NCBI GenBank assembly: GCA_030693205.1
Contig: JAUYBG010000003.1
Span: 1 to 37,993 of the forward strand
Direction: 5' to 3'
From: a bacterium
GTDB lineage: Bacteria; Patescibacteriota; Minisyncoccia; JAHIHE01
Length of the DNA: 37,993 bases
Shown here: positions 3,491 to 25,042 of the stretch, piece after piece
Layout of the letters: every line of letters starts with the position of its first letter
Numbering within the stretch: the first letter of the stretch is position 1
Program-made: the position numbers and the translations under genes
Notes under the pieces: model-generated
What the model saw: only the letters and a program-made list of their open reading frames with translations
Database searches by the model: none
What the model was told of the DNA's origin: nothing

Positions 3491-4864
3491 ATGACTCAAA
3501 AAATTAAAATTCGACTTTTGTTTTTATTCATTATCGTGCTGGCGATCGTCTCGGCTTTTATTGCCAGTCCGAAAACTCTTTCTTTTAAAGTTTATAAATG
3601 GAACGTGAAATTTCCGCCGGAAAAAGTTTCCGCGTATCTGAAAGAGAAAAATATCGGATATCACCTGGGCCTGGATCTGCAGGGAGGCACTCATTTGGTC
3701 TATGAAGCGGAATTGAATAATTTATCATCCACCAAGGCGGCGGAAGCCATGGAAGGCGTGCGGGACGTGATCGAACGCCGTGTAAATATTTTTGGCGTAG
3801 CCGAACCTCTTATCCAGATCGAAGGAAAAAATCGATTAGTGATCGACCTGGCGGGGGTAAAAGAAATCAGTCAGGCGATAAAAATGATCGGCGAGACTCC
3901 TTCGCTGGAATTTCGCGAAGAAACCCCGAGAGATCAGGTTGCCGCGGAATACAAAAAACAAACCGGCCAGGATCTGCCGGCGGAAGCGGTGGGGCCGTTC
4001 TTTCTTGCTTCCAGCGATCTGACGGGAAAAGATCTGGTGCGCGGACAGGCGGACTATGATCAGTCAACAGGCGCTTTAAGGCAGCCGATAGTGAAACTGG
4101 AATTTAACGAAGAAGGCAAGAAAAAATTCGCCGCTCTGACCACCAGAAATGTCGGGAAAGTCATAGCGATATATTTGGATGGCGTAAGCATTACCGCGCC
4201 AAGAGTAAATGAGGCGATTACCGACGGAAGCGCCATAATCAGCGGCAATTTTACCATTGAAGAGGCAAAAACTTTGGCTAAGAGGCTGAATGCCGGCGCT
4301 TTGCCTGTGCCGATAAAACTGATCAGCCAGCAGACGGTTGGCGCGACGCTTGGGCAGGATTCTTTGGCTAAAAGCTTGAAAGCCGGATCTTTTGGATTTT
4401 TATTGATCGCGCTTTTTATGATCTTGTATTATCGCTTGCCGGGATTGATAGCCAGTATTTCTTTGGTGATCTATACTTTGATCGTGGTAGCGATATTTAA
4501 TTTTCTTTCGATCACTTTGACTCTGGCGGGAATCGCCGGCCTGATCTTGTCTATCGGTATGGCTGTGGACGCCAATGTTTTGATCTTTGAGAGAATGAGA
4601 GAGGAATTGACCGGCGGCCGGTCTTTCAAGCTCGCGGTCGAAGATGGTTTCAGCCGGGCCTGGCCTTCGATTCGGGATTCCAATCTGACGACTTTGATCA
4701 CCGCGATGGCGCTATTTTGGTTTGGTTCAGGTTCGATCAAGGGTTTCGCGATCGCTTTGTCGATCGGTATTCTTATCAGTATGTTTTCGGCCATTACTAT
4801 CACCAGAAATTTTCTTCTTTTGATCCTAAGCCCGAAATTGGAAAAATATAAACAATTGTTTTAA
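3491..4864 (+). CDS. secD: Protein translocase subunit SecD
   Basis: SecD works with SecF in the membrane and uses the proton gradient to help pull exported proteins through SecYEG on the outer side. The 457-residue product has the family layout: an N-terminal membrane segment (about 9-26), the P1 head domain starting with GLDLQGGTHLVYE (about 60-72), and a C-terminal block of five membrane segments from about 300. The conserved AGLILSIGMAVDANVLIFER (about 350-369) carries the Asp expected in proton transfer. The length fits a separate SecD. It is followed after 22 bases by secF, the usual order. Its DNA is very rich in GATC: I counted 25 sites in 1374 bases. Confidence 0.97.
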   Translation: MTQKIKIRLLFLFIIVLAIVSAFIASPKTLSFKVYKWNVKFPPEKVSAYLKEKNIGYHLGLDLQGGTHLVYEAELNNLSSTKAAEAMEGVRDVIERRVNIFGVAEPLIQIEGKNRLVIDLAGVKEISQAIKMIGETPSLEFREETPRDQVAAEYKKQTGQDLPAEAVGPFFLASSDLTGKDLVRGQADYDQSTGALRQPIVKLEFNEEGKKKFAALTTRNVGKVIAIYLDGVSITAPRVNEAITDGSAIISGNFTIEEAKTLAKRLNAGALPVPIKLISQQTVGATLGQDSLAKSLKAGSFGFLLIALFMILYYRLPGLIASISLVIYTLIVVAIFNFLSITLTLAGIAGLILSIGMAVDANVLIFERMREELTGGRSFKLAVEDGFSRAWPSIRDSNLTTLITAMALFWFGSGSIKGFAIALSIGILISMFSAITITRNFLLLILSPKLEKYKQLF

Positions 4865-13989: not shown

Positions 13990-15438
13990 ATGAAAAGAAA
14001 ATTTAATCATAAGATTTTAATTATCGGTTATGGCTCGGTCTCGCAATGCACGCTTCCTGTTTTGCTGGACAAGATCGATATTCCTTTAAAAGATATTACC
14101 ATTTTGGATTTTGAAGATAAGGCAAAGGCTTTGAAAAAATATACTGATCAGGGTTTAAAATTTGTCAGAGAAAAAATTACTCCGGAAAATCTAGGCCAGG
14201 TTTTGGCGGAACAGGTGGATAGCGGCGGGCTCTTGATCGATCTCGCGTGGAATATCGGCGCCAATGATATTATCGGGTGGTGCCATGATCATAATGTTTT
14301 ATATATCAATACTTCAGTGGAACTTTGGGATCCGCTCAAAGGAATGTTCACGAAAAATCCTTTTGAAAAATCTCTTTATTGGCGGCAAATGCAATTGCGA
14401 GATCTTTCTCGTGACTGGAAAAACGCGCCAACCGCCGTCATCGAACATGGCGCCAATCCCGGCCTTATTTCTCATTTTGTCAAGCAGGGCTTGCTGGATA
14501 TTGCCGCGCGAGTTATCGCCGATAAAAAATTTACTCCAAAAGACGAAGAAGAATTGGGACATTACGCTCAGGAAAAAGATTTTGCCAAACTTGCCAGGAA
14601 ATTGGGAGTTAAAGTGATCCATTGCAGCGAACGCGACACGCAGATCACTAATCGTCCGAAGGAGGTCAATGAATTTGTCGGCACGTGGAGCATTGAAGGA
14701 TTGCGGGAAGAGGGAACGGCGCCTTCCGAAATGGGCTGGGGCACGCACGAGCGGAAACTTCCCGCTCTGGCGAACATACCGCCATATGGGCCCAAGAACC
14801 AGATCTTTCTTTCTCAAATGGGAATTAATACCTGGGTAAGATCATGGATACCGGACGAAGAAATTGTCGGCATGGCGATCCGCCACGGCGAAGCGTTCGG
14901 GCTTTCGGATTTTTTGACGGTTTGGGAAAATGGCAAAGCAGTTTATCGGCCGACCGTGCATTACGCGTATATGCCTTGCCATGAAACGCTTTCTTCGCTT
15001 TGTGAATTACGAGGCCGAAATTACGAACTTCAGCCTAAAATTAGAATTATGGGAAATGAAATTACGAAGGGCGCTGATACGCTCGGCGCGCTTCTAATGG
15101 GACATCCGTATAATTCCTGGTGGACAGGCAGTTCTTTGGATATTAACGAAGCGAGAATTCTGGCTCCCGGACAAAACGCCACCACTCTTCAGGTGGCGGC
15201 CGGCATAATTGCCGCCGTGCTTTGGATGATCGAAAATCCGCTGAAAGGCATTAATTCACCCGATGGCTTGCCTCATGACGCGGTGCTGAAATTTGCCAAG
15301 CCGTATCTTGGAAAATTTATTTCTACTCCGTCAGATTGGACGCCGCTAAAAAATCGCAAAATATTTTTCAAAGAAAATCCGGCGTCAAAGGTCAATTCCG
15401 ACCCTTGGCAGTTTGAAAATTTTCTATTTGTTGATTAA
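13990..15438 (+). CDS. hss: Homospermidine synthase
   Basis: This enzyme makes sym-homospermidine from putrescine (two putrescines, or putrescine plus spermidine), using NAD as a redox carrier, in the cytoplasm. The 482-residue product has the length of the bacterial family. The NAD-binding motif is IIGYGSVSQCTLPVL (about 11-25), and the next strand ends in an Asp (ITILDFED) for ribose binding. Family stretches include INTSVELWDP, EHGANPGLISHFVKQGL, and the C-terminal GALLMGHPYNSWWTGSSL. It is related to saccharopine dehydrogenase. It stands alone, with a terminator on both sides and no other polyamine gene in view, so its putrescine source must be encoded elsewhere or taken up. No SD is visible. 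Confidence 0.93.
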   Translation: MKRKFNHKILIIGYGSVSQCTLPVLLDKIDIPLKDITILDFEDKAKALKKYTDQGLKFVREKITPENLGQVLAEQVDSGGLLIDLAWNIGANDIIGWCHDHNVLYINTSVELWDPLKGMFTKNPFEKSLYWRQMQLRDLSRDWKNAPTAVIEHGANPGLISHFVKQGLLDIAARVIADKKFTPKDEEELGHYAQEKDFAKLARKLGVKVIHCSERDTQITNRPKEVNEFVGTWSIEGLREEGTAPSEMGWGTHERKLPALANIPPYGPKNQIFLSQMGINTWVRSWIPDEEIVGMAIRHGEAFGLSDFLTVWENGKAVYRPTVHYAYMPCHETLSSLCELRGRNYELQPKIRIMGNEITKGADTLGALLMGHPYNSWWTGSSLDINEARILAPGQNATTLQVAAGIIAAVLWMIENPLKGINSPDGLPHDAVLKFAKPYLGKFISTPSDWTPLKNRKIFFKENPASKVNSDPWQFENFLFVD

Positions 15439-15481
15439 AAAACGCGGTTCTGCCGCCCAGAAGCGGGGTTTTGACATATAA

Positions 15482-15506
15482 TAGGCCGGTTTTTCCGGTC
15501 TATTTT
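15482..15506 (+). terminator. Intrinsic terminator after hss
   Basis: TAGGCCGG (15482-15489) pairs with CCGGTCTA (15495-15502), one G-T wobble, loop TTTTT, followed by TTTT. A weaker, interrupted hairpin (AAAAC at 15437-15441 up to GGGTTTT ending near 15472) lies just before it. Confidence 0.8.
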
Positions 15507-15522
15507 ATATTAATCATTTTTA

Positions 15523-15632
15523 TGTTATAATATAGGCAGTTAATTATATATAATCATCAAATGACGAGGAGGACTAAAATTAATAATATAAATTTTTATA
15601 ACCTTTTTAAAAAGACTATTTTTTAGTCTTTT
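15523..15632 (+). promoter_or_regulatory. Leader of the pilB operon: extended -10, SD, short ORF and terminator-like hairpin
   Basis: TG at 15523-15524 and TATAAT at 15526-15531 form an extended -10; the -35 is weak. An SD-like AGGAGGA is at 15567-15573. A 21-codon frame runs from ATG 15561 through this SD to TAG 15624-15626. A stem of AAAAGACTA (15610-15618) with TAGTCTTTT (15624-15632), loop TTTTT, sits 12 bases before the pilB ATG and is followed by a T-rich run. No SD lies between this hairpin and pilB. The layout resembles an attenuator, but translation of the short frame is unproven. Confidence 0.45.
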
Positions 15633-15644
15633 ATTTATTTGCGT

Positions 15645-17402
15645 ATGCAATCAGAATTACAGGAAAAAATCAAAAAATTTATTTTAGACGAAGGCATAGC
15701 GGATCGGAAGAAAACCGAAGACGCTTTTATTGAAGCGCAAAAAACCGTAAAAAAGTTTAGCGATGTTTTGATCGAGAAAAAGATCATTCCTGAAGAAAAA
15801 GTAATGAAGATCAGCGCTTATGTTCTGGGCGTTCCGTTTATTGATCTGATGGACGAAGAGATTCCAAAAGATGTTCTGATGGTAATACCCGAGCCGATCG
15901 CCAGAGAGCATAGCATCATAGCTTACAAAAAGAAAGGCAACGAGCTGTTTGTAGCCATGCTTGATCCTGAGGATCTTCAGACGATCGAATTTATTAAGAA
16001 AAAAACCGGACTAAAGATTTCCGCCAGCCTTACCACGAGAGAGAGCATTAAAAATAGTCTCAAGCAGTATCAAAAAAGCCTGGAAGCGGAATTCGATGAT
16101 CTGATTAATAAAGGCTCTCCCGAAGGCGGATTAAAAATTGTTGAAGAGGGAGGAGAAGAACAGTCGGGCGATCTGGAGAAAAAAGCCTATGATATGCCGG
16201 TGGTAAAAATTGTCGATACTTTATTAAGCCACGCGATCAGCGAGGGAGCCAGCGATATTCATATTGAGCCGGAAGAAAAGGATGTTTTGGTCCGTTATCG
16301 GGTTGACGGCGTTTTAAAAAAAGCCATGATTTTACCTAAAACGGTTCATCAGGGAATTATTGCCAGAATAAAAGTATTGGCAAATCTTAAATTGGATGAA
16401 CACCGGCTTCCTCAAGACGGAAGATTTAAAATAGAAGGGGATGACTATAAAATGGCATTTCGCGTTTCGGTATTGCCTATTTTTGACGGCGAGAAGATCG
16501 TTATGCGCCTTTTAAATGAAAATTTACATGGACTCAGTTTGGAAAAAATAGGCTTTTGGGGAAAAGCTTATGAAAATCTAAAAGAAGAAATTGCCAAGCC
16601 CAATGGCATAATTTTGGTGACGGGACCCACAGGAAGCGGGAAAACCACGACGCTTTATTCAATATTGGAAATATTGAATACGCCCGATGTTAATATTAAT
16701 ACCATTGAAGATCCGGTTGAGTATCGGATGCCTCACGTCAATCAAACCCAGGTGCATGTAAAAGTAGGACTGACTTTCGCTTCCGGGCTAAGATCGCTAT
16801 TGCGCCAAGATCCGGATATTATCATGGTTGGAGAAATTCGAGACGAAGAGACGGCGGAAATGGCTATTCACGCGGCTTTGACCGGACATCTTGTACTTTC
16901 GACATTGCATACCAATTCGGCCGTCGCAACAATACCCAGATTGATCGATATGAAAGTAGAACCATTTTTGATCGCTACCACGATAAACGTTATTATCGCC
17001 CAGAGATTGGTGCGCCGATTATGCACCGAATGCCGCAAAGCGTATCATTTGGATAAAGATACTTTGAATAATTTATCAAAAAGGATCGACCTGGAAAAGA
17101 TCCTTAATGTTGTCAATAAAGAAAAAATAGCCAATATTAAAAAATGGGAAAATCACGTATTTTATAAACCGGCTGGGTGCGATCGCTGCCAGAAAGAAGG
17201 ATACAAAGGGCGGGTCGGGGTTTATGAAGTGTTTAAAAGCAACGAAGCGATCAGAGTTTTGGTTAACAAAGGCTCCAATGCCGATCTTATCCAGAAACAG
17301 GCCGTCGAGGATGGTATGCTGACAATGCTTGAGGATGGATTTGTTAAATTTGTCCAAGGAATAACATCCATCGAAGAAGTTTTAAGAGCAACGCAGGAAT
17401 AA
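15645..17402 (+). CDS. pilB: Type IV pilus assembly ATPase PilB
   Basis: PilB is the cytoplasmic hexameric ATPase that drives pilus extension; GspE is its type II secretion relative. The product is 585 residues from ATG 15645. A TTG at 15639 would add two residues, but ATG is preferred. Residues about 1-140 form an MshEN/GSPII_E N-domain. The catalytic part begins near 180 and has SEGASDIHIEPEE, Walker A GPTGSGKT (about 327-334), the Asp box (VNINTIEDPVE), Walker B (LRQDPDIIMVGEIRDEETAE) and the His box (HAALTGHLVLSTLHTN). The tetracysteine zinc site is present as CTEC and CDRC, about 50 residues apart. It is 23 bases from pilC and first in the locus. A separate retraction ATPase (PilT) is not in the window. 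Confidence 0.96.
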   Translation: MQSELQEKIKKFILDEGIADRKKTEDAFIEAQKTVKKFSDVLIEKKIIPEEKVMKISAYVLGVPFIDLMDEEIPKDVLMVIPEPIAREHSIIAYKKKGNELFVAMLDPEDLQTIEFIKKKTGLKISASLTTRESIKNSLKQYQKSLEAEFDDLINKGSPEGGLKIVEEGGEEQSGDLEKKAYDMPVVKIVDTLLSHAISEGASDIHIEPEEKDVLVRYRVDGVLKKAMILPKTVHQGIIARIKVLANLKLDEHRLPQDGRFKIEGDDYKMAFRVSVLPIFDGEKIVMRLLNENLHGLSLEKIGFWGKAYENLKEEIAKPNGIILVTGPTGSGKTTTLYSILEILNTPDVNINTIEDPVEYRMPHVNQTQVHVKVGLTFASGLRSLLRQDPDIIMVGEIRDEETAEMAIHAALTGHLVLSTLHTNSAVATIPRLIDMKVEPFLIATTINVIIAQRLVRRLCTECRKAYHLDKDTLNNLSKRIDLEKILNVVNKEKIANIKKWENHVFYKPAGCDRCQKEGYKGRVGVYEVFKSNEAIRVLVNKGSNADLIQKQAVEDGMLTMLEDGFVKFVQGITSIEEVLRATQE

Positions 17403-17425: not shown

Positions 17426-18640
17426 ATGCCAAAATATTCTTATAAGGCAAAAGGTAAAAATGGAGAAATAAAAGCCGGTGTTTTAAATGCGGCCGATGAA
17501 GCGTCTTTGCGCAAAAAGCTTAAAGAAACCGGATTCGCGCTTTTTTCCCTTAAAGAGGAAAAGAAGAGCAAGGATATTGATTTAGAATTTATAACCAAAT
17601 ATCTGGGAGTGCCGCAATTGGAGATCATAACTTTTGTCCATCTTCTGACAGTAATGGTTAAGGCCGGGCTTTCTTTGTCCAAATCGCTTGATGCTTTGAG
17701 CCGGCAGACGACCAACGCAAGGTTCGCTAAAATTATCAGCGAGGTAAATATTGACGTGGCTAAGGGCAACAGTTTCGCGGATTCTCTGGCCAGGCATCCG
17801 GATGTTTTTGACGAGCTTTTTGTAAATATGGTGCGCGTGGGGGAGTTGAGCGGCACATTGGATACTATTCTTGAACTTTCAGCGGAACAAATGAGAAAAG
17901 ATTATGAGCTTAAAAGCCGAGTAAAAGGAGCGATGATGTATCCGGCGGTGATATTGCTTGTTATGCTGGCGGTGGGAGTGGTTGTAATGGTTTATATAAT
18001 TCCAAAATTAACCGTCATCTTCACTTCGATGAATGTTGATCTGCCTCTCTCGACCAAGATTTTGATCGGAATAAGCAACTTGCTCACCAAACACGGACTT
18101 GAGATATTTGGCGTAGTTTTGGTGCTCGGTTATTTTTTTAGGATGTTTTTGCGGACAATTACCGGCATTAAAATTTTTGATAAGCTTATTCTGAAATTGC
18201 CTGTTTTTGGCGATATTTCCAAAAAAATAAATATTGCGCGCTTTGCCAGGACGACATCTTCTTTGATAAAAGGCGGAGTGTCTATCAGTACCGCTTTGAA
18301 AACTGTTTCCAAAACCCTGTCCAATTATTATTACAAAGAATCAATCAGAATCGCTGCCGAGAAAATTGAAAAAGGTGATACTTTGAAAGATATACTGGAA
18401 GAAACCGAAAATCTTTATTCTCCTCTGGTGCTCCAGATGATCGAAGTGGGAGAGGAAACCGGATCGCTGGATTCTATTTTGATGGATTTGGCGGAATTTT
18501 ATGAAGGGGAAATCACTGAAACGACAAAAAATCTATCCACTATCATTGAGCCGATCCTAATGGTGTTAATGGGCGTGGCTGTTGGTTTTTTCGCGATTTC
18601 GATGATCCAGCCGATGTATTCAATAGGAGATTCAATATGA
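17426..18640 (+). CDS. pilC: Type IV pilus inner-membrane platform protein PilC
   Basis: PilC is the membrane platform on which PilB acts to add pilins. The 404-residue product starts MPKYSYKAKGKNGEIKAG, a usual PilC start, and has two T2SSF domains, at about 65-190 and 268-395, each with the conserved (V)-x-VGE-x-(S/T)G-x-LD pattern (MVRVGELSGTLD and MIEVGEETGSLD). Three membrane segments lie near 170-192, 215-240 and 375-398. The length is that of the family. Its stop codon overlaps the start of the next gene by four bases (ATGA), so the pseudopilin is translationally coupled to it. Confidence 0.96.
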   Translation: MPKYSYKAKGKNGEIKAGVLNAADEASLRKKLKETGFALFSLKEEKKSKDIDLEFITKYLGVPQLEIITFVHLLTVMVKAGLSLSKSLDALSRQTTNARFAKIISEVNIDVAKGNSFADSLARHPDVFDELFVNMVRVGELSGTLDTILELSAEQMRKDYELKSRVKGAMMYPAVILLVMLAVGVVVMVYIIPKLTVIFTSMNVDLPLSTKILIGISNLLTKHGLEIFGVVLVLGYFFRMFLRTITGIKIFDKLILKLPVFGDISKKINIARFARTTSSLIKGGVSISTALKTVSKTLSNYYYKESIRIAAEKIEKGDTLKDILEETENLYSPLVLQMIEVGEETGSLDSILMDLAEFYEGEITETTKNLSTIIEPILMVLMGVAVGFFAISMIQPMYSIGDSI

Positions 18641-19617
18641 AAAAAGAAAAAGGGTTTACTTTAATTGAAGTTATTCTTGTAGTTGCGATTATGTCGATAG
18701 TTGTGACAGTTTCTCTTTCTTCTTGGCGATCTTTTTCTGACGCGACAAATTTAGGTAACACCGCAAAAATGATAGAAACGAAAATTAAGCTGGCAAAAAG
18801 TTATTCGCTGAGCGCGTTAAACGATACAAATTACGGCATCCGTTTCGAAACCGATAAAATTATATTATTTAATGCCGGTACAAGCACGGATATCGAGCCT
18901 TATAATTTAACTGATGGAGTGGAAATTTATAATATTGGTCTTTTTGGGGGTGGTGTAGATGCATCATGCAATAATGGAATTATAGATATTGGAGAGATTG
19001 GAGTAGATTGTGGAGGATCGTGCATACCTTGTTCTTCTTTGGTATTTAATCGTTTGACAGGAACCAGTAATAATGGCTCTATCAGCACTAGAGTTAAAAA
19101 TAATATTTCTAAGACAAAAACTATTTTAATCAATTCACAAGGTCAAACAGGGACGGATACATTTGGGGTCAGCACTACCCCAGCAATTGTGGAAGACACC
19201 ACGAATAATATTAATGCCAGACATATTCATTTTAATCTTTCGGCATGGAGCATTCAGGAAGGTCCGCCGCCTACCGTAACAGATTTAATTTTTAAAAAAA
19301 GCGATGGTACTGCTATTGTTGGTGGCGATATTAGTATTTCTTCCTCTTCTTTCAGTAGCAGTATGTTTAATTGGGAAGGAACAATTACAGTTGATAGCGT
19401 GGTGCAGAAATTAAGAATTCACACCTTGGATACAAGTGGCACCACACTTTGCATAATGCGGGATCGTATGCAAAATAGTAAATCTATTAAAATTTATTTT
19501 AAATATAGCGGCATGGAAAAGGAAGTTGTCACTTATACTGAAAGTACTGATGGTAGTGGTACGGTGACAGTAACGCCGAATTATACTTTTGTAGATAATC
19601 CAATACTTTCACAGTAA
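18637..19617 (+). CDS. FimT/GspH-like pseudopilin with a cysteine-rich insert
   Basis: A 326-residue minor pilin. The type III signal peptide is KEKGFTLIEVILVVAIMSI: prepilin peptidase would cut after G6 and leave F7 with E11 at mature position 5. The hydrophobic helix runs to about 27. Residues about 60-220 look like the GspH/FimT beta fold (YGIRFETDKIILF, LVFNRLTGTSNNGSI). This fold is interrupted at 111-132 by a small motif with C111, C125, C129 and C132 in a C-N-G ... GE-x(2)-VDCGG-x-C-x(2)-C pattern, seen in many secreted proteins. The C-terminal 100 residues form an extra beta-rich part. Its start overlaps the pilC stop. Likely part of the pilus priming or tip complex. A terminator follows, ending the pilB-pilC transcript. 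Confidence 0.87.
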   Translation: MKKEKGFTLIEVILVVAIMSIVVTVSLSSWRSFSDATNLGNTAKMIETKIKLAKSYSLSALNDTNYGIRFETDKIILFNAGTSTDIEPYNLTDGVEIYNIGLFGGGVDASCNNGIIDIGEIGVDCGGSCIPCSSLVFNRLTGTSNNGSISTRVKNNISKTKTILINSQGQTGTDTFGVSTTPAIVEDTTNNINARHIHFNLSAWSIQEGPPPTVTDLIFKKSDGTAIVGGDISISSSSFSSSMFNWEGTITVDSVVQKLRIHTLDTSGTTLCIMRDRMQNSKSIKIYFKYSGMEKEVVTYTESTDGSGTVTVTPNYTFVDNPILSQ

Positions 19618-19645
19618 TTATTGTAGTGACTCGGATTCAATGTTT

Positions 19646-19671
19646 CCCCGAAATTTTTTCGCGGGGTTTTT
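19646..19671 (+). terminator. Terminator between the first pseudopilin and the M23 gene
   Basis: CCCCG (19646-19650) pairs with CGGGG (19662-19666); AAA/TTT can extend the stem inward with a two-base bulge. TTTTT follows. It would end the pilB-pilC-pseudopilin transcript. Confidence 0.75.
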
Positions 19672-19703
19672 AATACCAATATTTTTATTTATGCCTATTT
19701 TTA

Positions 19704-19732
19704 TTGACTTTTAGCTTATTTTGGTTTATTAT
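19704..19732 (+). promoter_or_regulatory. Promoter of the M23/beta-propeller gene
   Basis: TTGACT at 19704-19709, a 17-base spacer and TATTAT at 19727-19732. The same hexamers and spacing occur before clpC (33642-33670). Confidence 0.8.
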
Positions 19733-19739
19733 TAAATTT

Positions 19740-19843
19740 CAATCTGTCTCGAAGCAATGCTTGGAGTAGGTTGATTAAACGAGGGCAATTGTACCCTTAC
19801 AACTGAATAAAATGCCTTTTAAGGCAGGAAAAAGTGATCAGAA
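19740..19843 (+). other. Structured leader of the M23 gene (candidate RNA element)
   Basis: About 100 non-coding bases with several short stems: CTCG (19748-19751) with CGAG (19780-19783) enclosing AAGC/GCTT (19752-19755, 19759-19762), GGG/CCC (19783-19785, 19794-19796), and TGCCTT/AAGGCA (19813-19818, 19821-19826). Some of these exclude one another. I cannot assign it to a known riboswitch class. Confidence 0.35.
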
Positions 19844-21850
19844 ATGAAAGGAAAGGGAATATTTAGAAATATAGCCATAATAATAGTTATGGTTGGATTA
19901 GTAATGTCATCGCTAATCGGAATAGCTGGAGCGGTTGCTCCTAATGAGGAATGGAATAAGACATATGGAGGAATGAGTAATGATTTAGTATGGTCTATGC
20001 AACAGACTTTAGATAGTGGATATGTTCTTGCTGGCGAGACAACTTCGTTTGGGGCTGGAAGTTCTGATGGCTGGTTAATTAAAACAGACTCATTTGGTAA
20101 TGAGCAGTGGAATAAGACATTTGGAGGAACAATATCTGACTATGTGTATTTTGTTCAACAAACCTCTGATAGTGGATATATTCTTGCGGGAGCTACAACC
20201 TCATATAGAGATCGTTCCGGTGATGGCTGGTTAATTAAAACAGACTCATTTGGTAATGAGCAGTGGAATAAGACATTTGGAGGAATAGGGGATTTGGAGG
20301 CTTTGTCTTCAGTGCAACAAACCTCAGAAGGTGGTTATATACTCGTAGGAACAAAGTTACTGTATGGAACAATAAACGAATACAATGCATGGCTTATTAA
20401 AACTGATGCAAGTGGTAATGAGTTATGGAGCAAGATATTTGGAGGAATATATTCTGATGGCGCTAAGTCGGTTCAACAAACCTCAGAAGGTGGATATATA
20501 ATAGCGGGATCTACTAAATCATACGGAGCAGGAAATGAGGACGCATGGCTTATTAAAACTGATGCCAACGGCAATGAACAATGGAATAAGACATTCGGAG
20601 GAATATACTATGATGCTGCTAAGTCGGTTCAACAAACATTAGATGGCGGATATATACTTGCAGGCTATAACTATCCATCCGGAATAATTGGATACAATGC
20701 TTGGCTTGTTAAAACTGATGTCAATGGCAATGAACAATGGAATAAGACAATCGGCGGAAGAAATGCTGACTACGCTTCTTCTGTTCGACAAATCTCGAAC
20801 GGAGGTTACATTATTGCAGGCTATACAGCCTTTTTTGATGCTAGTAAATATGATGCATGGCTTATAAAGATAGATTCGTCCGGTAATGAGCAATGGAATA
20901 AAACTTTTGGTGGAATAAATATTGATCAGGCTTATTTTGCTCAGCAGACCTCAGACGGTGGATATGTTCTCGCAGGTTATACAGCTTCTTATGGAGCTGG
21001 AGCCGGTAATTCTGACATTTGGCTAATTAAAGTTTCAAGTGATGCAGACGTTCCACCACCTATACTTATATCAACAGGACTCGCTTTTCCGCTTGAAGGA
21101 TATACACCATATACCGCGCCTGTGTCGTCAATAATGGATCATTCAATGACAAAGATTCTTACAAAAGACGGAATAGTGCGAGCGTTTGACGGAGAAGAAG
21201 GAAAAGTTAGTTATGGATGCTTTGATTATTCTACAAAAAGTATTTGTACCGAAAAAAACTACAGGAATAAGAAATATCAAGTTGTAGGCTATAAAAAAGC
21301 AGATGGTACTGATTTTCAGCTGCCATTAAACTATAAAGACCCCTATCTTTATTACGATGGACACCCTGGGTATGACTATCCTCAAGTAAAAGGAACGGAC
21401 ATCTTTGCACCAGCAAATGGCACGCTATGTATTATCATAAACAATAATAAGAAAGATGGAGAACTGTGGAGAAGTTCGACCAATTGTTCCTATTTAAGTG
21501 TTGCTCAGCAAACACTTGCATCATGGATAGGGTTCCACGCTTTCTATATTATTCATGAAGGATTGGAAATGAATGGTACTATTGGCGACTATATTACTGT
21601 TTTTATCCATAATGATAATCTAAGTGAGTCAGTATATAACGAAATTAAGACAAATGGTTACGTAAAAGTCAGTAAAAATCAGCATATTGCCGAAGTAGGC
21701 GGTTACGGGACAAACGGACCCAATACATTCGGTCCGCATATACATTTGGAGGTATTTAAGCGAAATGGAAACTTATGGGATCGAGTAGATCCTTACGGAG
21801 ACGGAATCAACGATATTCTATGGGAAGCTGGAAAGGTGCCCAGTACTTAA
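19844..21850 (+). CDS. Secreted seven-repeat beta-propeller protein with C-terminal M23 metallopeptidase domain
   Basis: A 668-residue exported protein. Residues 1-31 are a signal peptide. Seven tandem repeats, mostly 52 residues, run from about 35 to 402. Each begins E-(Q/E/L)-W-x-K-x-(F/Y/I)-GG and contains GGY-(I/V)-(L/I)-(A/V)-G and WL-(I/V)-K, as expected for a closed seven-bladed propeller. The C-terminal part carries a complete M23 (lysostaphin/LytM-type) zinc site: HPGYD (H507, D511) with the following GTDIFAPANG, and HIH (H632, H634). M23 enzymes cut peptide cross-links of peptidoglycan. The DNA is poor in GATC (6 sites in 2007 bases) and uses ATA and GGA often, unlike secD or secA. 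It has its own promoter and terminator inside the pilus locus. The repeats resemble surface proteins of methanogenic archaea (from memory), so transfer is possible. Confidence 0.88.
   Translation: MKGKGIFRNIAIIIVMVGLVMSSLIGIAGAVAPNEEWNKTYGGMSNDLVWSMQQTLDSGYVLAGETTSFGAGSSDGWLIKTDSFGNEQWNKTFGGTISDYVYFVQQTSDSGYILAGATTSYRDRSGDGWLIKTDSFGNEQWNKTFGGIGDLEALSSVQQTSEGGYILVGTKLLYGTINEYNAWLIKTDASGNELWSKIFGGIYSDGAKSVQQTSEGGYIIAGSTKSYGAGNEDAWLIKTDANGNEQWNKTFGGIYYDAAKSVQQTLDGGYILAGYNYPSGIIGYNAWLVKTDVNGNEQWNKTIGGRNADYASSVRQISNGGYIIAGYTAFFDASKYDAWLIKIDSSGNEQWNKTFGGINIDQAYFAQQTSDGGYVLAGYTASYGAGAGNSDIWLIKVSSDADVPPPILISTGLAFPLEGYTPYTAPVSSIMDHSMTKILTKDGIVRAFDGEEGKVSYGCFDYSTKSICTEKNYRNKKYQVVGYKKADGTDFQLPLNYKDPYLYYDGHPGYDYPQVKGTDIFAPANGTLCIIINNNKKDGELWRSSTNCSYLSVAQQTLASWIGFHAFYIIHEGLEMNGTIGDYITVFIHNDNLSESVYNEIKTNGYVKVSKNQHIAEVGGYGTNGPNTFGPHIHLEVFKRNGNLWDRVDPYGDGINDILWEAGKVPST
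19952..21050 (+). repeat. Seven tandem 156-nt coding repeats
   Basis: The repeated TGGAATAAGACA-like start occurs at 19952, 20108, 20264, 20426, 20582, 20738 and 20894, spaced 156 bases except for one interval of 162. The stretches 20066-20129 and 20222-20285 are identical over 64 bases, so at least two units were copied or homogenised recently. Confidence 0.9.
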
Positions 21851-21873
21851 ATAGAAATATATATAAAATTTAA

Positions 21874-21905
21874 CCGGAGATCAAACCTGATTTCCGGATT
21901 TTTTT
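21874..21905 (+). terminator. Intrinsic terminator after the M23 gene
   Basis: CCGGAGATCA (21874-21883) pairs over 10 bp, with one G-T wobble, with TGATTTCCGG (21888-21897) around the loop AACC. A run of seven T follows from 21899. Confidence 0.9.
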
Positions 21906-21935
21906 ATGCTTAGAATAAGCTTTAAAACGCCAATG

Positions 21936-21964
21936 TTGCGGAAGCGGTTAATTTGTAGTAAAAT
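21936..21964 (+). promoter_or_regulatory. Promoter for the distal pilus genes
   Basis: TTGCGG (21936-21941), a 17-base spacer and TAAAAT (21959-21964). The following SD-like GGAGGAG (22012-22018) is 23 bases before the ATG at 22042, unusually far, with a seven-T run between them. Confidence 0.65.
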
Positions 21965-22041
21965 ATAGACAGAGATAAATTTTTATAATAATTTTTTTAA
22001 ATAAAGTTTTTGGAGGAGCCACAGCTTTACACTATTTTTTT

Positions 22042-22572
22042 ATGATTGTAAAATTTTTTAAAAAATCAAATAGGTTTTCGCAAAAAGGCTTTGGCTTGAT
22101 CGAGATACTTTTAGTCGTCGGCGTGGGAATGGCAACTTTTTTGGGCATTGAACAATATTTAAACTTATCTTTGCGGGCGGCCATCCAGGATTCTCATCAG
22201 ACAGAAGCGCTTTATTGGGCTAAATCTAATTTGGAGCAAGCGCGAGCGGTCCGCGATGAAAATTGGGCATTGATCTCGGGATTGATTGTTGGGAATCAGT
22301 ATTCTTTTCTGCCTAGCGGGACAATTCCGCCTGTTGGGACAACTCCGCAAAAACTGGTAACCCAAAGCGGGACAAAAACCGAAGACAGATATACGGTTTG
22401 GATAACAACTTCCGCGGTTCAGCGCAAAAATGGAAGTGATAATATTGATACAAGCGGGGTAGATATTTATGATGACGTGAATACACTGAAAATCAATTCT
22501 AATGTTTCGTGGTTAGAAAATGGCGCGACAAAAACGATCACCATTTCGGAATATTTGGCAAATTTTAAATAG
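22042..22572 (+). CDS. PilV-like minor pilin
   Basis: A 176-residue minor pilin. The prepilin motif QKGFGLIEILLVVGVGMATF is at about 14-33: cleavage after the Gly before F17 leaves Glu at mature position 5. The basic stretch before it and the helix after it are typical. The body has the family stretch EALYWAKSNLEQARAVRDENW (about 54-74), common in PilV-like proteins of Patescibacteria, and then a beta-rich part. It probably joins the PilW- and PilX-like proteins encoded next in a tip or priming complex. The stop is one base before the next ATG, so the genes are coupled. The only good SD is 23 bases upstream. Confidence 0.88.
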   Translation: MIVKFFKKSNRFSQKGFGLIEILLVVGVGMATFLGIEQYLNLSLRAAIQDSHQTEALYWAKSNLEQARAVRDENWALISGLIVGNQYSFLPSGTIPPVGTTPQKLVTQSGTKTEDRYTVWITTSAVQRKNGSDNIDTSGVDIYDDVNTLKINSNVSWLENGATKTITISEYLANFK

Positions 22573-23173: not shown

Positions 23174-25042
23174 ATGAAAAATATATTAAAAAATAAAAAA
23201 AATATTAACGCTCGGGGTTTTGCCGGCATTATCGCTCTTTTGACCGTATGCAGCCTTGTTTTGATCTTAACTTTTTCTTTAAGCGCGAGCCTTTTCGCTA
23301 AAAAACAGATAAGCAAGAATTTGTTGAATTCTATTCGTTCTTATTATTTAGCGGAATCAGGAGTCGAAGACGCGGTTTTGCGCGTTTTAAAAGATTATGA
23401 ATATACGGCTGTAAATACTTTTACGCTTGACGGCGCTTCGGTCAGTCAAAATATTACCCAAAACGGCAATACTACAACCATTGAAACATCGTCTTCGTAT
23501 TCTAATAATGTCAGGAAACTCGCTTCGTCTTTAACTGTTACTACGACAGATGTTCAGTTTCATTATGGCGTTCAGGTGGGGGAAGGGGGTCTTAAGATGG
23601 AGAATGGTTCTAAAGTTAAAGGTTCTGGCACTGATGTAGGTAATATATATTCAAACGGATCAATAGATGGAGATCCTGGCGCGGAAATTACCGGAGATGC
23701 GATTGTTGCGGCTGGTATGTCGCCGGATGGCAACGATATAAATCATGATGAGTATGGCACAGGAAAAATATTTGGAAGAAAAGACGATTCTGCAAATACG
23801 GATATTGCTATGAAATTCATACCGGCGGCTTCCGGAGGTTTATCGCAAGTTGCTTTTTATTTAAAACGCGCAGGTTCTTTAAGCGATGGAACAGTCTATT
23901 TAACCGAGGACAATGGCAGCGGTTCTCCAAAAACAGTATCATTGGCGAGCACTATTTTTTACGCAGATAGAATCGGAGAATCTGATTATGGCTGGGTCAA
24001 TTACAGTTTTAATTCTCCTTACCCTGTAGTAGCCAGCAGTACCTATTGGATAGTTATCGATGTTGGCGAGTCTAGCAATATTAGTAGATATTTTTTAATC
24101 GGGCAAAATGCGGCTAATACGGATATTTCCAAGCATAGTATTAATTGGAGCAGTAATCCATGGTTGCCCTCTGGCGGAGAAGTGGCTGGAGGATTTGCTT
24201 TTAAAGCGTGGATAGGCGGCGTGGCCACTGTTCTTGAGCATGTGATTGTAGGCGGAAACGCATATGCAAATACTATTAAAGACAGTACGATTGTGGGCGA
24301 GGCGTTTTACCAGACTATTATTAACTCTACGGTAGGCGGTGCTGCATGTATGAATGCTAAATGTCATCCTGGCAGTGTTGATTATTCTATTGCGGCAATG
24401 CCGATATCGGATAGTAATATCGCGGATTGGAAAGCAACAGCTAGCGCGGGAATTGATTTAAGATCCCTTTGCAATGCTACAGGTACTGTATTAAATCCTA
24501 TAACTTTGGATACGGGTTACATGGATTGCGGCCCTTCGGGTTTTCAAGGCGATGGTCATATGATATTAAATGGAACAGTCTGGGTAAAAGGCAATATAAC
24601 TTTTGGTACGAATACCAGAGTGAAATTATCCGTTGCTTATGGCACCCGGAGCGGCGTATTAATAGCAGATTCTACTGATCCGGCGAAAGGAAAAATAACC
24701 ATTGGCAATAATTCACCGATATGCGGCACGCAAGGATATACAGCCGCTAACCCCCCCGAATGCAACCCTTCTAACGGGACTTATATTTTGGTATTGTCGA
24801 CACATGCCGGATACGCGGATAATGCCATTACGATTGCTAATAATAGCAACGGAGCGATATATTACGCCCATAATGGTTTAGCTCAAGTTTCCAATGGGGC
24901 AAATATTAAAGAGGTTACCGCTAAAAAATTATTATTAAAGCAAAACGCAATAGTGACTTATGAACAAGGTTTGGCTAATGCCAATTTTAGCAACGGTCCC
25001 GGAGCGGGTTGGGAAATTAACAGCTGGAATGAAACGCAATAA
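23174..25042 (+). CDS. PilX-like minor pilin fused to a large extracellular region
   Basis: A 622-residue protein, far longer than a normal PilX (about 150-200). Residues 1-80 are PilX-like: basic start, hydrophobic helix (about 15-40), and the family signature RSYYLAESGVEDAVLRVLKD (about 55-74). The prepilin Gly-Phe-x(3)-Glu pattern is degenerate here (GFAGII). The rest is extracellular. A domain at about 209-348 (FIPAASGGLSQVAFYLKRAG ... TYWIVIDVGE) looks like a choice-of-anchor or galactose-binding-like beta sandwich. It seems inserted into a repetitive, Gly/Asn-rich beta-helix-like part (HVIVGGNAYANTIKDSTIVG, GTVWVKGNITFGTNTRV), which includes several Cys (C395, C400 and others). This suggests an adhesin at the pilus tip (inference). 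It is last in the pseudopilin set. Confidence 0.83.
   Translation: MKNILKNKKNINARGFAGIIALLTVCSLVLILTFSLSASLFAKKQISKNLLNSIRSYYLAESGVEDAVLRVLKDYEYTAVNTFTLDGASVSQNITQNGNTTTIETSSSYSNNVRKLASSLTVTTTDVQFHYGVQVGEGGLKMENGSKVKGSGTDVGNIYSNGSIDGDPGAEITGDAIVAAGMSPDGNDINHDEYGTGKIFGRKDDSANTDIAMKFIPAASGGLSQVAFYLKRAGSLSDGTVYLTEDNGSGSPKTVSLASTIFYADRIGESDYGWVNYSFNSPYPVVASSTYWIVIDVGESSNISRYFLIGQNAANTDISKHSINWSSNPWLPSGGEVAGGFAFKAWIGGVATVLEHVIVGGNAYANTIKDSTIVGEAFYQTIINSTVGGAACMNAKCHPGSVDYSIAAMPISDSNIADWKATASAGIDLRSLCNATGTVLNPITLDTGYMDCGPSGFQGDGHMILNGTVWVKGNITFGTNTRVKLSVAYGTRSGVLIADSTDPAKGKITIGNNSPICGTQGYTAANPPECNPSNGTYILVLSTHAGYADNAITIANNSNGAIYYAHNGLAQVSNGANIKEVTAKKLLLKQNAIVTYEQGLANANFSNGPGAGWEINSWNETQ

Follow-up and report, generated by a model that had tools for sequence, protein, structure and literature searches.

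Why does a gene for a secreted peptidase stand inside a type IV pilus operon, and what would such an enzyme do for a tiny, episymbiont-type bacterium of the Patescibacteria? The question is raised by a 668-aa protein encoded between two pilin genes in one patescibacterial genome (GenBank assembly GCA_030693205.1), which joins a seven-bladed beta-propeller to an M23 peptidase domain. The window analyzed here is the complete contig C3 (JAUYBG010000003.1; 37,993 bp) of a 1.0-Mb multi-contig draft genome (23 contigs; completeness 100%, contamination 0.25%); the genomes of its relatives measure 0.5 to 1.5 Mb, as is typical of Patescibacteria, or the candidate phyla radiation (CPR). The prevailing view is that Patescibacteria live on other microbes; for a small number, life on methanogens has by now been established. 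In the comparison set, the genus is represented by a single genome and the family by two, the second of which (G001) is the nearest relative; the genome-wide reading covered about 98% of the window's genome. We consider, with a probability of about 0.5, that the gene is one of several, specific to this lineage, that encode secreted wall peptidases with archaeal-type adhesion modules; these enzymes would work on the surface of an archaeal partner or attack the bacteria around it.

A lineage-specific insertion in a conserved pilus operon

The pilus locus of the window comprises pilB and pilC, a GspH-like pseudopilin, PilV-, PilW- and PilX-like genes, and pilM. The two flanking pilin genes, the gene between them and its signals lie on the forward strand. 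Between the GspH/FimU-like pseudopilin (positions 18637 to 19617; Pfam N_methyl, 33 bits; TIGR01708) and the PilV-like minor pilin (22042 to 22572) lies a single non-pilus gene (19844 to 21850), which encodes the fusion protein. In relatives, the homologues of the two flanking genes abut: the gap between them is 6 to 137 nt in all 11 with readable synteny, including G001, the only other family member (pilB 65% identical), versus 2,424 nt in the window (inserted segment, 19618 to 22041). The gene is thus a lineage-specific insertion and, being present at this site in 0 of the 11 relatives, is not a core component of the pilus locus. Of 53 relatives searched with the whole protein, 2 have a match, confined to the propeller, at 37% and 27% identity; G001 has none. 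Furthermore, the codon fit of the gene to its own genome is the sixth worst of 375 long open reading frames (ORFs). The original prediction of a transferred gene is supported by these results: the gene neither occupies this site in all relatives nor belongs to a standard core protein of the group.

The local signals that had been predicted around the gene vary in strength. A structured leader (19733 to 19843; fold z −4.5 over 19735 to 19800 and −3.6 over 19730 to 19835) precedes the gene and a strong intrinsic terminator with a 10-bp stem (21874 to 21905; fold z −5.2) follows it, both as anticipated; no known RNA in Rfam matches the leader. The terminator-like hairpin before the gene (about 19645 to 19675; −8.4 kcal/mol) does end in U5 but folds no better than shuffled sequences (z −0.86), and L101, the locus of the nearest relative, likewise has a comparable GC-rich hairpin 3' of its pseudopilin gene. 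The promoter-like sequence TTGACT-17-TATTAT (19704 to 19732; 10 of 12 matches) is of a kind hardly more frequent than chance (12 such boxes versus 10.7 expected in shuffles) and is a candidate on the strength of its position, given that TTGACA boxes also precede family leaders at other places in the genome. For the distal pilus genes, no distinct promoter was established, the only box in the scan overlapping the pilV start. Around the gene, no convincing flanking repeats that could represent the ends of a mobile element were detected. The contrast in GATC sites that had been read as a sign of transfer is numerically correct (6 sites in 2007 bases versus 25 in the 1374 bases of secD), but the argument was rejected: with 3.0/kb, the gene ranks at the 17th percentile among the long ORFs of the genome, and it is secD (3491 to 4864; 18.2/kb, 99th percentile) that is the outlier.

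Other genes were observed in and near pilus loci. In the related genus g11, three loci (L106:6195-8586, L107:3435-4523 and L108:1469-4951) contain additional genes between pilC and the pseudopilin, encoding DKNYY repeats, AAA/DUF4143 proteins and unknowns; the pilus locus therefore takes up cargo genes repeatedly. In the window itself, a Saccharopine-dehydrogenase-like gene (13990 to 15438) lies between secA and pilB and is missing there in L101, which makes it a second insertion nearby. A 622-aa PilX-like protein with a DUF4082-like insert (23174 to 25042), conserved in relatives, is a possible tip adhesin of the window's pilus.

A chimeric-looking propeller-peptidase protein

The ORF, an AlphaFold2 (AF2) model built with 22 homologues from the fetched loci, and alignments agree on the layout originally proposed for the protein. 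A putative type I-like signal peptide without a lipobox cysteine (approximately residues 1 to 30; 19844 to 19933), recognized by inspection and modeled as a helix at residues 4 to 25, is followed by the propeller (residues 35 to 397; 19946 to 21034), which is modeled as 28 strands forming seven four-stranded blades, mostly at a predicted local distance difference test (pLDDT) score of 90 or above. Each blade derives from a repeat of ~52 residues, and the corresponding seven DNA repeats measure about 156 bp each. Two adjacent blades share a 67-bp stretch at 99% identity; blades have thus been duplicated recently. The C-terminal region with the M23 domain (residues 409 to 668; 21068 to 21847) was modeled at a pLDDT of about 30, for want of homologues to align; the confident part of the model is the propeller.

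The M23 domain scores marginally below the Pfam cut-off (PF01551; 28.5 bits, E = 1.7e-6, versus a cut-off of 28.7 bits) because inserts split it. Nevertheless, its active site is complete: the zinc ligands H507 and D511 in the motif HPGYD (residues 507 to 511; 21362 to 21376), the catalytic H632 and the zinc ligand H634 in HIH (632 to 634; 21737 to 21745), the YxH-position histidine H589 (21608 to 21610), whose catalytic role we take from established M23/LytM chemistry, and H571 do not vary when the protein is aligned with four further patescibacterial M23 proteins. On the strength of the HxxxD and HxH residues, the YxH histidine and homologues that do pass the cut-off, the domain is classified as a divergent, marginal M23 domain. 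Weak relatives were identified in 12 of 379 other Patescibacteria, and in the M23 tree, which is small and has biased sampling, the window domain groups with most of them (support 98*) on a long branch. Plasmids, phages and viral contigs yielded no relative of this domain.

One alternative is an ordinary secreted M23 endopeptidase that remodels the cell's own peptidoglycan, given that M23 is common in Patescibacteria and that the genome has six other M23 matches. The fusion protein, however, matches none of the other M23 proteins of the genome; furthermore, its gene is lineage-specific, codon-atypical, fused to a propeller and part of a diversified set, as described below, which makes a role in maintaining its own wall quite improbable.

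The propeller, in contrast to the M23 domain, is of an archaeal type, a well-supported assignment based on homology. A scan of 84,980 species genomes for peptide patterns taken from the query detected 58 propeller loci, nearly all of them archaeal (Methanosarcinales, Methanophagales, Thermoplasmatota, Methanoperedens and some DPANN), at 46 to 60% identity in the alignment used. The best match, at 60% identity, comes from Methanophagales; the L011 propeller is 59 to 60% identical, and two Methanosarcinales ORFs (L012 and L013), aligned from residue 1 to about residue 400 to 405, are 53 to 54% identical. The best match among plasmids is on an archaeal plasmid, that of Methanomethylovorans, and viral contigs gave no match. 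The suspected likeness to methanogen proteins is thereby supported. The subtype (delta-60/SBBP-like) was recognized by homology rather than by a curated model, the score against TIGR02608 falling short of the cut-off (19.3 versus 76.5 bits). The closest solved fold, and the top Foldseek match, is the C-terminal propeller of CylK, a cyanobacterial alkylating enzyme (7roo; E = 4.5e-28, 26% identity). In propeller trees, the window sequence falls among those of Methanophagales and Methanosarcinales without strong support, and a tree test rejects the grouping of all bacterial propellers into one clade (p = 7e-54). The separate trees place the M23 domain with Patescibacteria and the propeller among archaeal sequences, with too little resolution in the propeller tree for a donor to be named. 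The protein looks chimeric, because its propeller is of an archaeal type while its M23 domain groups with patescibacterial enzymes.

Both halves of the protein have counterparts elsewhere. The archaeal secreted seven-bladed delta-60/“WNKTFGG” propellers (L011 to L013 and the Methanomethylovorans plasmid protein) share with it the repeat, the blade number and the secreted character, but no M23 domain is present in any of the archaeal propeller ORFs fetched. Conversely, three of the weak M23 relatives, all secreted proteins from another patescibacterial family, f88 (L127, L129 and L130), have the same M23 subfamily with aligned catalytic residues behind an N-terminal propeller-like part; they differ in that this part is of the BNR/sortilin type, where Pfam recognizes one, in their extra C-terminal parts, and in being only about 31 to 35% identical over the M23 domain. 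Propeller-M23 is thus a recurring plan in Patescibacteria, whereas the exact fusion with the archaeal-type propeller turned up nowhere else in the genomes searched. The novelty originally claimed for such a fusion in a pilus locus therefore holds for this exact combination and has to be narrowed in two respects: another patescibacterial family has fusions that involve a different propeller, and propeller proteins in pilus loci have precedents, namely, PilX2 of Saccharibacteria and PilY1 (PMC12206443).

A dispersed family of peptidase genes with a common leader

The last ~56 nt of the leader (19788 to 19843) recur before other genes of the same genome, as identified by blastn comparison of upstream intergenic DNA (79 to 80% identity to leaders on contigs C19 and C6; E = 1e-5). 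The family leader includes a AAGTGATCAGAA element and runs into the 15-mer AAGTGATCAGAAATG (19832 to 19846), which ends in the start codon ATG. This motif has 4 exact copies in the genome versus 0.005 expected, along with 3 more copies with one or two changes. None was found in the 58 propeller loci, even at one mismatch. The only copy in 361 other Patescibacteria genomes (L225) precedes a 22-codon ORF; it was taken as chance and rejected as a family member.

Apart from one gene-less remnant on C6, the motif copies precede secreted proteins, mostly peptidases. These are the propeller-M23 protein of the window, M23+Kre9/GENW+NosD beta-helix proteins on C6 and C10, an M23+GENW+NosD protein on C19, a CHAP protein on C11, and a 139-aa secreted protein on C6, so that at least five secreted wall-peptidase genes (M23 and CHAP) share the leader. 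A related leader stands before a C39+GENW+NosD gene on C10. In all, four sister proteins (three M23 and one C39) combine a secreted peptidase with archaeal-type GENW and NosD beta-helix modules; their genes are L160:12215-14095 on C6 (reverse strand), L165:17480-19270 (forward) and L168:17533-19401 (reverse) on C10, and L179:7017-8864 on C19 (reverse). The C39 protein and one M23 sister share 90% identity in their C-terminal parts, indicating that the catalytic domain was swapped. The NosD part of the sisters is 56 to 57% identical to Methanoperedens proteins. The M23+NosD plan also exists in an anaerobic methanotrophic (ANME-2) archaeon (G440, L223), in a single 1,530-aa secreted protein with a large beta-helix, the M23 domain of which is sister, in the M23 tree, to those of a pair from the window's genome. 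From the propeller-M23 protein of the window it differs in having an M23 domain of another branch and no propeller of the window type. M23 domains were detected in 64 of the 238 genomes of the class of this archaeon (for example, L228 to L234 and L241), several of them as parts of large, secreted surface proteins that combine them with further extracellular modules.

The members of the family also share an unusual codon composition. The misfit of the window gene is extreme within the window alone but ranks 19th of 663 ORFs genome-wide, and the family comparison was therefore relied on: the six family genes rank 3, 8, 14, 17, 19 and 45 of 663 ORFs, ranks as low as these occurred in 0 of 200,000 random draws, and 92 other secreted-like proteins have a median rank of 336.

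All members are single genes at scattered sites, and the sister genes lie far from pilus genes. By sequence inspection, the neighbors of the sister genes are rplL, rplJ and uvrB; groES and groEL; and uvrD. Because the family is scattered singly among ribosomal, chaperonin and DNA repair genes, the pilus site looks incidental; the choice of this locus probably needs no functional reason, and the original suggestion that the enzyme was placed where pili are made is not borne out.

The same observation bears on a pilus-tip adhesin, the reading in which the protein would be a partner of the minor pilins and its M23 domain would open the wall at contact or let the pilus through. The gene does lie inside a minor-pilin cluster, the place that PilY1 occupies in other bacteria, and both PilY1 and PilX2 of the CPR bacterium Nanosynbacter are likewise seven-bladed propellers encoded among type IV pilus genes. 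The reading is retained because Nanosynbacter requires PilX2, a hepta-bladed propeller pilin, to bind its host normally (PMC12206443). PilX2, however, belongs to the minor pilins and has an RCC1 propeller, whereas the window protein has no pilin part, its own leader and strong terminator, and an M23 enzyme. A Pfam scan detected no N_methyl match, and the signal is of type I by inspection, so that a class III prepilin signal is lacking; the PilY1/PilC propeller family (PF05567) gave no match at E up to 1. Moreover, the gene is missing in the 11 relatives with the same pilin set, and sister genes with the same leader are remote from pilus genes. A pilus-tip function is thus unlikely.

An assembly chimera or archaeal contamination also has to be considered, since the genome is a draft of 23 contigs and many of the related sequences come from archaeal metagenome-assembled genomes. 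Yet both flanks of the gene belong to one continuous pilus operon that is syntenic with relatives, the genome is 100% complete with 0.25% contamination, and the leader is repeated on three or more other contigs beside housekeeping genes that are plainly bacterial, which argues against contamination. We regard an artifact as very improbable.

Three further observations concern the family. Short upstream frames, discerned by eye, end immediately before or over the ATG in several family leaders (among them window 19788 to 19843, L165:17330-17485 and L168:19396-19555); for example, one frame is closed by TGA inside AAGTGATCAGAAATG, and the frame in L165 spans ~30 codons, starting MHTTIERQK. These frames look like a leader peptide or translational coupling. 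Small membrane proteins are encoded beside three M23-NosD genes (L160:14361-14933 and 15193-15825; L165:15747-16574 and 16637-17215; L179:9053-9637); they begin MAENK...SLLIF... or MKLT..., contain a YGFEIKYP-like motif, and are PsbP-like by Pfam in two cases, and a PsbP-like match also occurs among the extra pilus locus genes of G015. Finally, a 1176-aa codon-atypical secreted C39_2+PA14+DUF11 protein on C11 (L174:6143-9673), without the exact leader, is probably a member of the same surface peptidase repertoire.

Possible functions of the peptidase set

Under the reading favored here, the dispersed set (M23, CHAP and, with a related leader, C39) would have arisen by insertion of single genes with their own leaders between unrelated housekeeping genes, the pilus operon being one landing place among several. 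The propeller of the window protein and the GENW-plus-NosD modules of the four sisters were probably acquired from archaea. The protein, once secreted, would be held on the surface of a neighbor or in the extracellular matrix by its propeller, a putative adhesion or targeting module, and the M23 peptidase would cut peptide links of the wall or matrix at the docking site. That the set combines M23, C39 and CHAP catalytic domains suggests wall or matrix peptides as the target, and the archaeal type of the binding modules suggests an archaeal partner or an archaeon-rich matrix; the archaeal-type propeller of the inserted gene and the scattered family with its shared leader together hint at contact with archaea. 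Growth of Patescibacteria on the methanogens Methanothrix and Methanospirillum has been documented (PMC9600506, PMC9763046, PMC12281837); in these lineages, secreted proteins resembling peptidases were recorded as active (PMC10936435).

Several points weigh against this reading. The M23 module does not look archaeal: relatives of the window-type domain were found neither in 45 archaeal and other genomes with propellers nor in the 238 genomes of the class of the ANME-2 archaeon. The scan that detected the close propeller relatives used query-derived patterns, the weakly supported tree does not settle the donor, number or direction of propeller transfers, and the test narrowly fails to reject a tree that unites just the four Patescibacteria propellers (p = 0.056). 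Codon usage was discarded as a donor test, several archaeal groups and Patescibacteria of the same order fitting about equally. No archaeal partner was identified in the analysis. To our knowledge, furthermore, the walls of Methanosarcinales lack peptidoglycan, so that on a host of this kind an M23 enzyme would have to use a different substrate.

The nearest-standing rival interprets the set as antibacterial weapons, that is, bacteriocin-like modular hydrolases built by the logic of zoocin or lysostaphin, in which the propeller or NosD part would recognize competitor or host bacteria and the M23, CHAP or C39 domain would break peptidoglycan; in one variant, archaeal antibacterial hydrolases may have brought the archaeal modules with them. 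M23, CHAP and C39 do make up a wall-lytic set, the nearest M23 chain in the PDB is that of zoocin A, if weakly (E = 0.022), and the frequent M23 domains in the class of the ANME-2 archaeon, several of them in large secreted proteins, fit this reading as well. Archaeal chimeric M23 hydrolases built by domain shuffling kill bacteria (PMC12352652), and secreted peptidoglycan hydrolases were proposed to degrade the host wall in the predatory CPR bacterium Vampirococcus (PMC8080830). The Woldo/zoocin A-type hydrolases likewise combine M23 with a targeting domain through cross-domain shuffling (PMC12352652), but their targeting domain binds peptidoglycan, whereas the window protein has in its place the propeller, a candidate targeting module by analogy. 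No known peptidoglycan-binding domain was recognized in the fusion protein by the Pfam scan, nor any immunity gene beside its gene, and the M23 domain of the window groups with patescibacterial rather than archaeal M23. An antibacterial function is accordingly possible, although on the improbable side.

As for the lifestyle behind the set of wall peptidases with archaeal-type modules, a more specific scenario can be put forward tentatively, at well below even odds: a patescibacterium living on or with an archaeon would deploy a coregulated set of peptidases, assembled from catalytic domains and captured archaeal surface modules under a common leader, for docking to its partner or blending in with it, a form of cross-domain mimicry. 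We know of no description of the molecules that mediate contact between Patescibacteria and methanogens. The leader-marked peptidases with archaeal surface modules are named, expressible candidates for such contact molecules, and the closest relatives of the modules offer a way to guess the partner. The set would also parallel, on the bacterial side, the archaeal wall hydrolases that were described recently as products of domain shuffling.

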